Source: a bacterium | GTDB taxonomy: Bacteria > BMS3Abin14 | Reading direction: 5' to 3' | DNA: 32,680 nucleotides | Assembly: GCA_029210545.1 (NCBI GenBank) | Contig: JARGFV010000019.1 | Location: 1 to 32,680, forward strand | In this document: positions 4,258 to 24,775 of the stretch, one piece after another | Position numbering within the stretch: position 1 is the stretch's first letter | Layout: every line of letters begins with the position of its first letter | Program-made: the position numbers and the translations under genes | Notes under the pieces: model-generated | Databases searched by the model: none | Seen by the model: the letters and a program-made list of their open reading frames with translations, nothing else | What the model was told of the DNA's origin: nothing

Positions 4258-6537
4258 TATCGGGTTCTCGTGAACTGCCTTCAGGCGCAGCCAGCGCCGG
4301 TCCACCTCCACCTGGAACGCCTCAACGATGTCCGCGTTCTCGGCCTTGGTGAGGTGGCGCGTCTTGCCCATGGTCTTGAGCCACTCGATAACAGGCAGTT
4401 TGCCGTCCTTTTCCTCGGGGTTGTAGGTGATGGTCGTGATGCCGTTGTAAACTTCGTAGAGGGGGTAGAAACAGGTATCGACGGCTTTCTGGATGATGTC
4501 CACGGAGTTTTTCTCGACCGTTCGCCAGCCAAGGGGGCATACGGACAGGACCTTGCCGAAAACGAACCCTTTCTCGGCGGCTACTTTCTGGGCCATGGCG
4601 GCCTTGCGTACCATGTCACGAGGCTGCGTTTCCACCGCGGTGAAGACGTAAGGGATATGGCAGGCGGCAAAGATCTGGGCCGTATCCTTGTGATGGAACG
4701 ACTTACCCCGCTCGCCGGGTCCGACCCCCGAAGTGGAGGTCTGGTGCCCTATGGGGGTCGTGAAGGAAAGCTGCGTCCCCGTGTTCATGTAGGCTTCGTT
4801 GTCGTACTCGAGGAGGATCATCTTGTGGCCGCGGATTGCCGCGCCGATGCTGGGCCCCATGCCGATGTCGTGGCCGCCGTCACCTGTGACCATGATGAAG
4901 GTGAACTCCTCGTCACCGGGAAGCCGTCCCTTCCTGACCAGGGTGTGGTACGCCTCCACGAGGCCGCTCATCGTAGCGGCGCCATTCTGGAACAGGTTGT
5001 GGATGTAGGTGATCCGGTGCGAACTGAAGGGGTATCCGGTGGTGACGACCATGGCGCAGCCGGTGTGGAACTGGACGATGACGTTGCCTTCGATCCCCTT
5101 GAGGAAGGTGTTCAGGCTCGGGAAGATGCCGCAGCCCGGGCAGGCGCCGTGGCCTGGAACGATCCGCTTCGGTTTGGCGGCCAGCTTCCGCTTGTTGAAC
5201 CCCTTGAGGAGGAAATGGCCGTCCTTTTCTTCAAGGCGGAAGATCCCCGGCGACTGCTCCTCTTTTGTAAGTGGTGCAACGACGCGCTCCATCTTCACAT
5301 CGGGATCGCCCGGGTTGGCGCCGTGATAATCGAAGTGCACCTTGACCAGGCCTGTTTTTGCCGTGTCGAGGGCTTCCGCCAACAGCTCCAGGGCATCTTC
5401 CACATAGAACTCACGGCCTCCCAATCCGTAGATCCTCGACAGGACCTGGGTGCCGTTATCGGGATCGTCCTTGAGGGCCGCCTTGATCTCCATGGACATG
5501 TTGCCGTTAAAAGCGCCGTAACTGTCGGCACGGTCACCCACCATGAGAGCCTTGACGCCTGAAAAAGCGGCCTGGATCCCCTTTACGGGAAACGGCCTGA
5601 TCACGGTGGATGTCACGACTCCGACCTTCTCGCCTTTTTCCCGCAGCCGGTCCACGGCGATCTTTGCCGTGTCGAAGGCGGAATTGAGCACGAACAGGGC
5701 CGCCTCGGCGTCTTCCATGGCGTAGGAGTTGAGAACGGAATAGGTCCGGCCGGAGAGCTTGCCGTACTCCCCGTAGATACCGGGGAGAAGCTTGTAAGCC
5801 TTCTCCATGGCCATGGAGAGCTGTTTCTTGTTGTTGATGAGATCGGGCTCGTTCATGTACGGACCGATGGTGACCGGGTTGCCGGGATCCAGGGCGTGGT
5901 TCTCCTGGACCTTGTCTCCCAGCCAATCACGGACGACGGAAGGATCCTCGAAATAGTAAACCCTTCTCTTCTGGTGGCTTGTGAAAAAGCCATCGTAAGC
6001 GACGATGACCGGGAGCCTGACGTCCGGGTGCTCACCGAGCTTCACCGCGATAATGTTAAGGTCGTAGGCCATCTGGGGGTCCTTGGCCAGCAGCATGATC
6101 CATCCCGCGTTTAGGGCCATCATGATGTCGCTGTGGTCGCCCTTGATGTTCAGGGGACCGGAGACCGAGCGGCAGGCAATGTCCAGGACCATGGGGAAAC
6201 GGCTTCCCGACTGGACCGGGAGCTGTTCCATGGCGAAGAGCAGGCCGTTGGCGGAGGTGGCGTTGAAGACGCGGGCACCTCCTGCTGTAGCCCCGAAACA
6301 GATACCGGCGGCACCATGCTCCCCGTCTCCCGGGATCATGGTGATATCGTGCTGGCCATCGGCCTTCAGTGCGTCCAGGGTCTCTGCCACCTGGGTCGAG
6401 GGAGTGATGGGATAGTACCCTACCACGTCGAAATCGATGTGCATGGCAGAGATGGCGGCGATGGCGTTCCCGTCCAGAAGGTCCACCTTCTGCGGGTACG
6501 GCCCAGAGAGTTTTTTAGCGGTCCTGGCGGAACTCAT
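4252..6537 (-). CDS. porAB: 2-oxoacid:ferredoxin oxidoreductase, fused alpha-beta subunit (probably pyruvate)
   Basis: Encodes 761 aa. Residues 20-425 are the alpha part, with GYYPITPSTQVAETLD at 40-55. Residues 455-761 are the beta part, starting GHGACPGCG. Cys466, Cys469, Cys494 and Cys667 match the four ligands of the proximal [4Fe-4S] cluster. The thiamine-diphosphate motif runs from GDGG (552-555) to YDNEAYMNTG (578-587), which is the PorB pattern and favours pyruvate over 2-oxoglutarate. The enzyme interconverts pyruvate + CoA and acetyl-CoA + CO2 with ferredoxin. The start overlaps the stop of the gamma-delta gene by four bases (ATGA), so the two are translationally coupled. Usually alpha and beta are separate polypeptides; here they are fused in alpha-beta order. 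Substrate could still be another 2-oxoacid. Confidence 0.92.
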   Translation of the reverse strand: MSSARTAKKLSGPYPQKVDLLDGNAIAAISAMHIDFDVVGYYPITPSTQVAETLDALKADGQHDITMIPGDGEHGAAGICFGATAGGARVFNATSANGLLFAMEQLPVQSGSRFPMVLDIACRSVSGPLNIKGDHSDIMMALNAGWIMLLAKDPQMAYDLNIIAVKLGEHPDVRLPVIVAYDGFFTSHQKRRVYYFEDPSVVRDWLGDKVQENHALDPGNPVTIGPYMNEPDLINNKKQLSMAMEKAYKLLPGIYGEYGKLSGRTYSVLNSYAMEDAEAALFVLNSAFDTAKIAVDRLREKGEKVGVVTSTVIRPFPVKGIQAAFSGVKALMVGDRADSYGAFNGNMSMEIKAALKDDPDNGTQVLSRIYGLGGREFYVEDALELLAEALDTAKTGLVKVHFDYHGANPGDPDVKMERVVAPLTKEEQSPGIFRLEEKDGHFLLKGFNKRKLAAKPKRIVPGHGACPGCGIFPSLNTFLKGIEGNVIVQFHTGCAMVVTTGYPFSSHRITYIHNLFQNGAATMSGLVEAYHTLVRKGRLPGDEEFTFIMVTGDGGHDIGMGPSIGAAIRGHKMILLEYDNEAYMNTGTQLSFTTPIGHQTSTSGVGPGERGKSFHHKDTAQIFAACHIPYVFTAVETQPRDMVRKAAMAQKVAAEKGFVFGKVLSVCPLGWRTVEKNSVDIIQKAVDTCFYPLYEVYNGITTITYNPEEKDGKLPVIEWLKTMGKTRHLTKAENADIVEAFQVEVDRRWLRLKAVHENPIL

Positions 6538-13127: not shown

Positions 13128-13159
13128 GAACTCAACGAAGTTATAAAGCGCGATCTATA

Positions 13160-13209
13160 TTGATGACTTCACAAAAAGTCCCGGATTGGACTTTTCGCGA
13201 CCCTGTCAA
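13160..13209 (+). repeat. 50-bp short form of the five-hairpin repeat
   Basis: It joins the first 21 bases of the full repeat directly to its last 29, so hairpins 2 to 4 are missing. It ends in CTGTCAA. It lies two bases upstream of a full copy. Confidence 0.85.
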
Positions 13210-13211
13210 AG

Positions 13212-13369
13212 TTGATGGCTTCGCAAAAAGTCATCAACGCGCCCCGCGCGGGGCGCCCAAATCAATGACTCACTCCGTAAGTCATTGATTTGTAAGGAAA
13301 GGGAAAACGACGCTTTTCCCTTTCCGTGGAGCGAAAAGTCCCGGATCGGACTTTTTGCGACTCTATCAA
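13212..13369 (+). repeat. Full-length 158-bp five-hairpin repeat, copy 1
   Basis: The whole element is tiled by hairpins: TTGATGGCTT/AAGTCATCAA; GCGCCCCGCGCGGGGCGC; AAATCAATGAC/GTCATTGATTT; GGAAAGGGAAAA/TTTTCCCTTTCC; AAAAGTCC/GGACTTTT. Its ends, TTGATGGCTTCGCAAAAAGT and the complement of the last 21 bases, are imperfect terminal inverted repeats. Copy 2 (21769-21926) has the same length and orientation and about 90% identity by eye. It has no coding capacity, so it resembles a MITE or a REP-type element. Confidence 0.9.
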
Positions 13370-13491
13370 TATTGAAACGGCATCGAGCACGTCGCTCTTA
13401 GCTCATGGCACTTAGTTCATAGCACTTAGTTCATATCCCCCTGTCCCGAGCTTATCGAGGGATCAGTTCTCCGCCGCCAGCCATAAAACCG
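13370..13491. other. Gene-free stretch upstream of icd promoter
   Basis: No gene. It contains a short tandem duplication of the word GCACTTAGTTCAT (about 13408-13433), related to the CTAAGTGCTATGAGCTAAG stretch near 23095, and a TCCCGAGCTTATCGAGGGA hairpin near 13444-13462. Confidence 0.55.
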
Positions 13492-16732: not shown

Positions 16733-16925
16733 GGAAAGGGAAAAGCGTGGTTTTCCCTTTCCTCACGGTGACTACAGTAATATCGCCAAAGTCCGGGTAG
16801 GACTTTGGCTCAACGGAAAGGAAAAAGCGTGGTTTTTCCTTTCCTCACGGTGACTGCTGATAATCACCAAAGTCTGTGCGAGACTTTGGCTCAACGGAAA
16901 GGAAAAAGCGTGGTTTTTCCTTTCC
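16733..16925 (+). repeat. Tandem hairpin array, period 81-82 bp, 2.4 units
   Basis: A 30-base hairpin, GGAAAGGAAAAA/TTTTTCCTTTCC around GCGTGG, starts at 16733, 16815 and 16896. Between the copies lies a second hairpin, CCAAAGTC/GACTTTGG, at 16786-16808 and 16867-16889. These resemble hairpins 4 and 5 of the 158-bp repeat in order and shape. Confidence 0.85.
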
Positions 16926-16950
16926 TCACGGATCGCTGACATATTTGGCG

Positions 16951-17027
16951 GTCATCGATCCGGGCGCCTCTCCCAGGCGCGGCAGTTTTCACGGGTCATC
17001 GATCCGGGGGCCCTTCCCAGGCGCGGC
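16951..17027 (+). repeat. Two 33-bp direct repeats
   Basis: GTCATCGATCCGGG starts copies at 16951-16983 and 16995-17027, both ending CCCAGGCGCGGC. They differ at a few central bases and are 44 bases apart start to start. Confidence 0.85.
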
Positions 17028-17030
17028 TAT

Positions 17031-17077
17031 TCATTGATTTGGGCGCCCCGCGCGGGGCGCGTTGATGGACTTTTTGG
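17031..17077 (-). repeat. Inverted truncated copy of the five-hairpin repeat
   Basis: Reads, on the opposite strand, the hairpin 3 arm (CATTGATTT), hairpin 2 (GCGCCCCGCGCGGGGCGC) and most of hairpin 1 of the full repeat. The terminal bases have diverged (GGACTTTTTGGGG). Confidence 0.8.
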
Positions 17078-17093
17078 GGTCCAAAAATTTTTT

Positions 17094-21598: not shown

Positions 21599-21768
21599 GG
21601 TCTTGGAAAGTTTCTTGAAATTCCAGATTCCAGATTCCAAAAGGGGAGCGCGGTTCACGTAAAAGCGATAAAGGCTGCCTCACACAGCCTGTCCGCCATA
21701 GCTTTAGCGAAAGCGGAAGCTCGAAGAGCGAAGTCGGATGGATCCTGGATTCCTTTGAAATTTGAAAG
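21599..21768. other. Gene-free stretch with short degenerate repeats
   Basis: No gene. It holds CCAGATTCCAGATTCC repeats (about 21622-21638), a GCTTTAGCGAAAGC hairpin (about 21700-21713) and a run of TTTGAAA words into which the next repeat is inserted. Confidence 0.5.
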
Positions 21769-21926
21769 TTGATGACTTCGCAAAAAGTCATCAATGTGCC
21801 CCGCGCGGGGCGCCCAAATCAATGACCGGTCCCGCAAGTCATTGATTTGTGAGGAAAGGGAAAACGACGCTTTTCCCTTTCCGTGGAGCAAAAAGTCCCG
21901 GATTGGACTTTTTGCGACCCTATCAA
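21769..21926 (+). repeat. Full-length 158-bp five-hairpin repeat, copy 2
   Basis: Same length, orientation and hairpin order as 13212-13369. Hairpin 1 is perfect here (TTGATGACTT/AAGTCATCAA). TTTGAAA repeats lie on both sides, so it sits inside a low-complexity tract or is flanked by a target duplication. It ends 35 bases before the next gene. Confidence 0.9.
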
Positions 21927-21961
21927 ATTTGAAATTTGAAATTACCGACGAGAGGCCGTAA

Positions 21962-23077
21962 ATGACCATTCAAAAGCAACCATCTATCCACGAAGCAGTA
22001 AAATCCCTTTTAACAGTGAATATGGGCCTCGAGGAGAACGAGAACCTCCTCCTCCTCGGCGACACGGCTGATAAGGCATGTCAGGACCTTGCCCGGGAAG
22101 TGGGTGAGACGGCACAGGCTCTGCACCCGGCCACAAGGACACTTATTTTCGATCCGGCCGGCGGGCACGGCCAGGAGCCTCCCGTTGAGGTCTGGGAAGC
22201 GGCGTTCGGGGCCGAAACAGTCCGTTCCCTGGAGGAAAACGGTCTTCTGTCAGCCATTATCGCCAAGGAGCGCGATGATAACACCCTGAAACAGGCGCTG
22301 CATGTTGTTGAAAAGGAAGGGGATAACGGCGCTGCTGTCATCGTGGCGCTGACCCACTTCTCCACCAGCCACACTACCTTCAGGAAACTGCTCAACGAGG
22401 CCCGCGGCGTGAGATACGCCAGCATGCCCCTTTTCGAGCGGGAGATGTTTTTCGGTTCCATGAACGTCGATTGGGCGTCACTGTCGGCATCGACAAGGTC
22501 TCTTGCAGGTGCGCTTGCAGGGGCGGACAGGTGCGAGGTCCGGGCACCCAACGGCACCGAGGTGGTTTTCACGGTTTCCGGCCGGCCTGTCATACCGGAT
22601 GGGGGTATACTGACGTACAAAAGGGCTTTCGGGAACCTGCCGGCCGGGGAGGTCTTCATGGCCCCTGTGGAGGGAACCACGGAAGGTACCCTCGTCCTCG
22701 ACTGGGGGCCCCTGGCCAGATTTGTCAAACCGCTCACGGTCCGGATAGAGGCTGGACGGGCTGTATCTGTTTCCGGTGAAGACGCCGGTGCGGTCGGTTG
22801 GCTCGAAAAGGCCCTTGACGCCCATCCTGCCAACGCCAATGTAGCTGAACTGGGCATAGGGACCAACCCCGGGGCTACGAGACCCGACAACGTCCTCGAA
22901 TCTGAAAAGATCCTGGGAACCGTCCACGCGGCCTTCGGGGACAACCACACCTTCGGAGGCCGGACGGTGGCCCCGTTTCACCAGGATTTTGTGATCTTCG
23001 ACGCCAGCCTGGTGGGGGTCTGGGAGAAGGGAGGAGGGAGGAGGGTGCTTTTGACTGAGGGGAGGCGGGGGTGGTAA
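21962..23077 (+). CDS. M29-family aminopeptidase-like metalloprotein
   Basis: Encodes 371 aa. GNLPAGEVFMAPVEG, VAELGIGTNPGA, EKILGTVHAAFGDNHT and PFHQDFVI follow the metal-ligand pattern of peptidase family M29 (thermophilic leucyl aminopeptidases). Candidate ligands are Glu230, Glu296, His322, His340 and Asp342. The 66-residue spacing of the two Glu matches the family as I recall it. It should release N-terminal amino acids in the cytosol. The N-terminal half is more divergent than usual, so a related non-peptidase is possible. The ATG at 21962 has GAGAGG upstream. It is preceded by the repeat and appears to be a separate unit from ntrX. Confidence 0.82.
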   Translation: MTIQKQPSIHEAVKSLLTVNMGLEENENLLLLGDTADKACQDLAREVGETAQALHPATRTLIFDPAGGHGQEPPVEVWEAAFGAETVRSLEENGLLSAIIAKERDDNTLKQALHVVEKEGDNGAAVIVALTHFSTSHTTFRKLLNEARGVRYASMPLFEREMFFGSMNVDWASLSASTRSLAGALAGADRCEVRAPNGTEVVFTVSGRPVIPDGGILTYKRAFGNLPAGEVFMAPVEGTTEGTLVLDWGPLARFVKPLTVRIEAGRAVSVSGEDAGAVGWLEKALDAHPANANVAELGIGTNPGATRPDNVLESEKILGTVHAAFGDNHTFGGRTVAPFHQDFVIFDASLVGVWEKGGGRRVLLTEGRRGW

Positions 23078-24238: not shown

Positions 24239-24273
24239 TTGTTGAATGAGCAGAAAACCGTCTCATTCAACAA
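24239..24273 (-). terminator. 12-bp inverted repeat at the lipoprotein gene 3' end
   Basis: TTGTTGAATGAG (24239-24250) and CTCATTCAACAA (24262-24273) are exact complements around an 11-base loop. The stop codon of the minus-strand lipoprotein gene is inside the right arm. There is no strong T-run. Confidence 0.6.
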
Positions 24274-24775
24274 TGATAGAGTCGCAAAAAGTCCAATCCG
24301 GTTCCATGAAAGTGGCCGCGTCGATCACATCAACGGCCGCGAAGTGGCGTCCCCGGCAGGGTCCTGCCGTGTACAGCCTGGTGTAAACCCCGTCTCCCGC
24401 CTCGAGATCACCGTTGGTCCCGTCGTCGGTTTCCCTTTCGAGACGTTCCAGGTCCCCCCTCCACCAGAAGCATGGAAGTTCGGCGGTTCCTGATTGGGCG
24501 GCGAGGGACTGGACCGGTGCCTGCCCGTCATAGACCTGCGCCTGAGCCGCGGCTGCCGCGTCCTCGTCCCCATCCGTTCCTGTTACCGATTCGACGAAGA
24601 AAGGTTCGGTTTCAACAGCCGCCAGGATCGCGGCCTGATCGGCCTCGGTCCCTCCTGTGATGGAAACCCCGCTGCCGGACCCGCAGCCGGCGAGGAAGGC
24701 CAGAAGGAGACCGGATACCGCCAAGACCAGGACTTCAACCCGGTAATTCCTGAAACAATGTGTCTTGTTATTCAT
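24263..24775 (-). CDS. Putative lipoprotein with an anchor-X-like repeat motif
   Basis: Encodes 170 aa. A lipoprotein signal peptide ends LLLAFLAGC, so Cys31 is the lipidated residue, and the protein should be membrane-anchored on the outer side. The mature part is acidic and low in lysine; DDGTNGDLEAGDGVYTRLYT resembles the aspartate-rich turn found in choice-of-anchor X-type extracellular domains. No function can be given. The last ten codons lie in a fragment of the five-hairpin repeat (24274-24301), so the natural C-terminus may have been replaced. AAGGG is the ribosome site upstream of the ATG at 24775. It is a single gene, convergent with the PH-like gene. Confidence 0.7.
   Translation of the reverse strand: MNNKTHCFRNYRVEVLVLAVSGLLLAFLAGCGSGSGVSITGGTEADQAAILAAVETEPFFVESVTGTDGDEDAAAAAQAQVYDGQAPVQSLAAQSGTAELPCFWWRGDLERLERETDDGTNGDLEAGDGVYTRLYTAGPCRGRHFAAVDVIDAATFMEPDWTFCDSIIVE
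24274..24301 (-). repeat. Fragment of the five-hairpin repeat inside a gene
   Basis: Twenty-eight bases match the right end of the full repeat in reverse, with one mismatch (GATAGAGTCG for GATAGGGTCG). They encode PDWTFCDSI of the lipoprotein. Confidence 0.8.

Follow-up and report, generated by a model that had tools for sequence, protein, structure and literature searches.

A new family of modular, hairpin-rich MITEs that insert at AANNTT, with an IS1182/ISNCY-like insertion sequence as the likely mover

The analysed stretch of DNA (32,680 bp; hereafter the window) carries two copies of a 158-bp repeat, at 13212–13369 and 21769–21926, which have equal length, identical orientation and 92% sequence identity. 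An earlier note had described both copies and taken the element itself to be 158 bp long. The length holds for the repeat unit, but the element proper spans only 154 bp, from GAT to ATC (copy 1, 13214–13367; copy 2, 21771–21924; both on the + strand), because the outer TT and AA of each unit belong to a duplicated AANNTT target. Copy 2 lies between AAAGTT (21765–21770) and AAATTT (21925–21930), i.e. a target duplication with one mismatch. Copy 1 is followed by AATATT (13368–13373) and preceded by AAAGTT (13208–13213), a 6-bp spacer of the AANNTT type that separates it from a mini copy. The terminal inverted repeats (TIRs) are imperfect and ~19–21 bp long, with 18 of 21 positions complementary, and the element contains no gene; both features had been noted before (there as TIRs of about 21 bp and a lack of coding capacity).

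Besides the two full copies, which are indeed present, the window holds members that the earlier note did not count. The mini copy (13162–13207, + strand, 46 bp) consists of the TIRs only, with its left end fused directly to its right end and the middle absent. Its left flank (13157–13161) reads ATATT, which equals the last five bases of the right flank of copy 1; the matching outer flanks look as if the mini copy and copy 1 had moved or inserted as a single unit. A third copy is cut by the contig start and retains H4, H5 and the right end (1–74, + strand), and a long relative of modular build, its hairpin modules repeated and its ends decayed, occupies ~16733–17084 on the − strand. A 27-bp right-end fragment (24275–24301, + strand) forms the last codons of ORF 24263–24775 (− strand), a reading frame whose end was apparently changed by the element. 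The intergenic sequence CGCCATAGCTTTAGCGAAAGCGGAAGCTCGAAGAGCGAAGTCGGATGGATCC, at 21690–21742, is separate from these members; its minus strand reads as the 'DFALRASAFAKAMADRL' peptide of ORF 21655–21969, and we take it to be a widespread repeat of other bacterial genomes.

Copy 1 is built of five adjacent hairpins on the + strand: H1 (13212–13237; arms TTGATGACTT/AAGTCATCAA), which forms the left terminal repeat, H2 (13239–13256; GTGCCCC/GGGGCGC type), H3 (13258–13292; arms AAATCAATGAC/GTCATTGATTT), H4 (13296–13325; arms GGAAAGGGAAAA/TTTTCCCTTTCC) and H5 (13331–13358; arms GCAAAAAGTCC/GGACTTTTTGC), which forms the right terminal repeat. Both copies fold in this way, as anticipated, and the outer ends can also pair with each other (18/21 positions), so that a multibranched fold is possible. 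The folding energy of copy 2 alone corresponds to z = −9.6 (DNA parameters) and that of 13159–13369, which contains copy 1 and the mini copy, to z = −10.8 (RNA parameters); no shuffled sequence was as stable in either case. We judged stem conservation by counting pairs in 70 copies from several genera. Standard pairs make up 95.3% of the cells in 52 pairs (40–54% in slid versions), changes on both sides occur at 14 pairs (8.7 on average in shuffles), and covariation (0.134 vs 0.079) scores above all shuffles. For example, the H3 arms AAATCAATGAC/GTCATTGATTT of the genome of the window (G000) correspond to GGATCAAGGAC/GTCCTTGATCC in G006, and one H5 pair has changed from CG to UA in 19 copies. 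The five hairpins are thus conserved through compensatory changes, which is the outcome that the earlier note had proposed to look for.

The repeat is abundant in its own genome (2.72 Mb, 241 contigs). A similarity search returned 368 candidates, of which 40 were scored, at 90–100% identity, and the right-end motif (at most one mismatch) occurs 235 times, compared with 0 for a reversed-pattern control. Many contigs of this genome end ~50 bp inside a right end, and the window itself starts within a copy. The earlier note had named a handful of copies, or stems broken without compensation, as grounds against its reading; instead, dispersed ends number in the hundreds and the changes compensate. 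At the family level, blastn detected the repeat in all but one of the 12 sampled genomes of family f1; the exception is G001, a complete genome with 0 copies. Outside family f1, the exact 19-bp end is present in one of 374 genomes (G053), where a ~132-bp element (C13, ~5423–5554; L150) has the same ends, GATGACTTCGTAAAAAGTC, a 6-bp ACCATT duplication and an unrelated interior with GTCACCCTGAACTTGTTTCAGGGTCT. This element just precedes an ORF that resembles a tyrosine recombinase N-terminus. A pattern scan of a genome collection matched one other record, the MAG 'bacterium isolate PFL40' (G011), and distant-mode searches for the element in plasmids and phages gave no match.

Target duplication was assessed in 121 of the 122 distinct full copies gathered from 11 genomes of family f1. 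An exact duplication of 6–7 bp flanks 59 of the 121 copies, compared with 4.1 on average and 13 at most when left and right flanks were re-paired (2000 shuffles). The duplication is 6 bp long, sometimes 7, and the flank consensus is AANNTT. The two middle bases of this consensus are mostly the same on the left and right sides, which rules out that the flank repeat simply prolongs the terminal repeats. The 12 copies sampled in G003 have a mean identity of 97%, and each has a flank repeat of at least 5 bp (exactly 6 bp in 10); this identity, together with duplications in all 12 sampled copies, indicates recent activity in that genome. In the more diverged genomes G005, G010 and G011, the duplications have mostly decayed.

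Filled and empty sites can be compared at the ntrX–aminopeptidase gene pair, which adjoins copy 2 and is conserved across family f1. Three genomes of three genera (G000, G003 and G006) each have an element in the spacer of this pair, at different points and, in G006, in opposite orientation. The spacer is element-free and only a few tens of bases long in G001, G007 and G010, and is longer, yet also element-free, in G004, G009 and G011. The positions of the three elements can be read as independent insertions. The repeat thus combines TIRs, target-site duplication, dispersed multi-copy occurrence and insertion polymorphism with a short, transposase-less body (typically 154 bp), all of which are expected of a miniature inverted-repeat transposable element (MITE).

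Elements with the same ends vary greatly in size: the smallest, with one hairpin, measure 44 bp and the largest, with 15, 564 bp. Forms of 44–46 bp are the two terminal repeats alone, those of 134–175 bp mostly have four or five hairpins and those of 234–564 bp have 7 to 15. The size sample over-represents 154 bp, since most copies were retrieved through their likeness to the 154-bp form. Exact target duplications occur at sizes of 44, 45, 144, 150–157, 173, 175 and 325 bp; a further mini element, in G004 (L107 225), has AGATAT on either side. The long forms contain variable numbers of added hairpin types (i.e. CGCGCCTGGGAAGGGCGC, GGGAACCGAAAA/TTTTCGGTTCCC and CCAAAGTC/GACTTTGG) and are frequent in the genome of the window, where such arrays occur at dozens of places; the relative at 16733–17084 is a decayed example. 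Tandem elements separated by AANNTT-like spacers also occur, and the mini copy with copy 1 is one such case. In G004, variants with a short H3 (~134–140 bp; C28, C33 and C16; L270, L271 and L275) are arranged in tandem with AANNTT-like spacers. TIR-only copies of 44–46 bp have target duplications of their own, which implies that transposition can do without the internal hairpins. These probably act as a cassette that grows and contracts and travels with the element.

A candidate partner is an insertion sequence (IS) of 1,665 bp in the genome of the window (L048, 1259–2923), which directly adjoins a MITE copy and whose ends (GATGGACCCGCAATTAGTC and GACGGCATCGCAAAAAGT) correspond to those of the MITE. 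It was hit by an ISNCY profile search and singled out by an adjacent known TIR position; in the loci read, the remaining hits of that profile lacked a TIR match. In G007, the right end of the same IS, GATGGCTTCGCAAAAAGT, is followed by AACCTT and is identical to MITE left-end variants. The identity between the two IS copies stops at that border, and in both the conserved sequence ends exactly at GAY beside AANNTT. The G000 protein contains DUF772 and DDE_Tnp_1 domains above the Pfam cut-offs. It matches the IS1182 profile with 1.6e-33 and 116 bits, below the NCBIfam curated cut-off of 270 bits, as does the partial G007 protein with 131 bits, and it also matches the ISNCY profile below the curated cut-off; we therefore call the partner only IS1182/ISNCY-like. 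An IS in a Microvirga plasmid encodes a homologous transposase (36% identical), and its inverted repeats end in GACGGGGCGGTAAAAAGT, which is alike in pattern. The inverted repeat of this plasmid IS runs ~18 bp outward beyond the TIR-like core (L306, 1434–1469 and 3218–3253), as if the IS had inserted into a palindromic target.

Both partner genes look damaged. By-eye reading suggests that the G000 transposase is without the segment bearing the catalytic glutamate, and that the G007 fragment has a catalytic-glutamate-like RFRAGVE...K segment that is absent from the G000 protein. In G007, a contig end truncates the gene, which also seems to be frameshifted downstream; G004 retains no more than a fragment of the L048-type IS. 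Among the genomes searched we found no intact IS with MITE ends, the L048-type copies have no clear target duplication, and viral contigs scanned for the transposase gave no hit. IS1182-type transposase genes in G003 (intact) and G009 were also considered as the mover and rejected, as the MITE ends are missing at the expected borders in the fetched flanks. The matching transposase that the earlier note had suggested seeking thus exists as an IS with the same ends in two genomes, but in a form that looks damaged.

We consider it very probable that the 158-bp repeat is a MITE that inserts at AANNTT and is moved, through shared ends, by an IS, with the L048-type IS as the likely partner. This agrees with the earlier note as far as it proposed a non-autonomous mobile element, for which the TIRs, the 6–7-bp duplication, the empty and filled orthologous sites, the dispersed ends and the same-ended IS all speak. 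The transposase would recognize the MITE through the GAYRRNNTCGYAAAAAGTC terminal repeats common to the IS ends, probably by cut-and-paste chemistry, and insertion duplicates the 6 (sometimes 7) bp of AANNTT. The high copy number, palindromic units and mosaic arrays also recall palindromes of the REP/BIME type, which a RAYT (Y1) transposase moves. However, REP/BIME units are without TIRs and target duplications, and the present element has both a clear target-site duplication and long TIRs as well as a five-hairpin anatomy; a REP/BIME origin is highly improbable, in line with the earlier note, which had argued against a simple REP. As for the partner, the 1.67-kb L048-type IS with its IS1182/ISNCY-like DDE transposase is, or recently was, likely the mover, judging from its ends, and we regard the link as good but not closed. 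The genomes searched contain no intact L048-type transposase, and G003 has been recently active without a detectable one. As G003 has the freshest copies and the ends of its IS1182-type genes do not match, the active mover there may be missing from the assembly or may be another IS. Movement of the MITE by an IS of another type is nevertheless somewhat unlikely, given that, among the loci examined, the L048-type IS of G000 and G007 is the only place outside the MITEs where the end motif accompanies a transposase gene, that the distant Microvirga homologue has similar ends, and that fragmented assemblies often miss multi-copy IS (in G007 and G004, the fragments lie at contig ends).

What keeps the hairpins paired is a separate question. 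Tentatively, the MITEs may form a hairpin-string class in which selection on the transposing lineage, acting on one strand of single-stranded RNA or ssDNA, maintains the pairing. Parsimony on a tree of 114 copies offers a hint, and only a hint, of such constraint on the + strand: changes in H2–H4 on internal branches went to G-T 15 times and to A-C once, compared with 41:27 on single-copy branches (Fisher p 0.016), whereas the G-T excess over all helices is not significant (p 0.11). This contrast, along with the compensatory stem changes, would also be expected of a structured non-coding RNA whose hairpins act in the transcript under selection on the + strand and are carried along by transposition. 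We consider this quite improbable, because folding does not consistently favour the + strand (it is the more stable one in 50 of 114 copies), TIR-only copies transpose, and Rfam covariance models detected only one tRNA across the window and no family that the repeat matches. Moreover, 25 copies with rough gene calls show no apparent bias in their orientation to neighbouring genes (10 in the direction of both neighbours, 8 opposite, 7 divergent and 0 convergent). Scans for sigma-70 promoters and intrinsic terminators around both window copies found none, and we saw no evidence of a host function. A mutational origin of the pairing, by template switching or inter-arm correction in replication instead of selection, is unlikely but deserves more weight. 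It would account for 23 double compensatory changes on single-copy branches, where selection should be weak, and for the many hairpin types and module duplications. Single-copy branches may, however, hide unsampled transposing lineages, and the G-T over A-C excess on shared branches is unexpected from strand-symmetric repair. If selection on the transposing lineage is indeed responsible, the pairing of the cassette would be maintained in lineages that still transpose, and the hairpins would serve the element itself and not a neighbouring host gene.

In brief, this MITE family is new, abundant and modular to an unusual degree: the kind of element is ordinary, its body interesting. The family supplies a well-sampled natural series, across about ten bacterial species, in which a mobile element keeps its ends while its hairpin number runs from one to fifteen. 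This allows us to ask what internal hairpins contribute to the success of a MITE and whether selection or a mutational process keeps them. The family also helps to explain the fragmented assembly of the genome of the window, and its recognition marks intergenic repeats of a little-known, uncultivated lineage for annotators.

Several known repeats share parts of this anatomy. By description, RUP, Correia and ERIC are likewise small, TIR-bounded, intergenic and strongly folded mobile repeats of 100–200 bp, but they have a fixed body without a ladder of one to fifteen hairpins, and their targets and partner IS differ. Within ISNCY, the ISDol1 group is listed with 6–7-bp repeats. The 6–7-bp duplication found here is unlike the 4-bp repeats observed experimentally for an IS1182 member in Paracoccus (PMC3281130) and unlike IS1272, which inserts at inverted repeats without duplication (PMC5678879). 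The MITEs of Methanosarcina acetivorans (160–169 bp), which are paired with the IS1182-family ISMac2 (PMC3852290), are similar in their length of ~160 bp, inverted repeats of ~25 bp and IS1182-family partner, but their reported direct repeats measure 4 or 0 bp and their copies number only 7–14, compared with 6–7 bp and up to hundreds of ends here. The BOX elements of Streptococcus pneumoniae are modular (67–637 bp), with TIRs, target duplications and IS-like ends (PMC3049150). Like the present MITEs, they are high-copy and TIR-bounded, with target duplications, variable internal hairpin modules and a proposed IS mover with similar ends. In contrast to BOX, the end units of the present MITEs are themselves hairpins, the body can be absent (44–46 bp) and the target is AANNTT. 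The hosts differ and the likeness is one of layout, with no relation in sequence seen; by that layout, pneumococcal BOX is the nearest working analogue.
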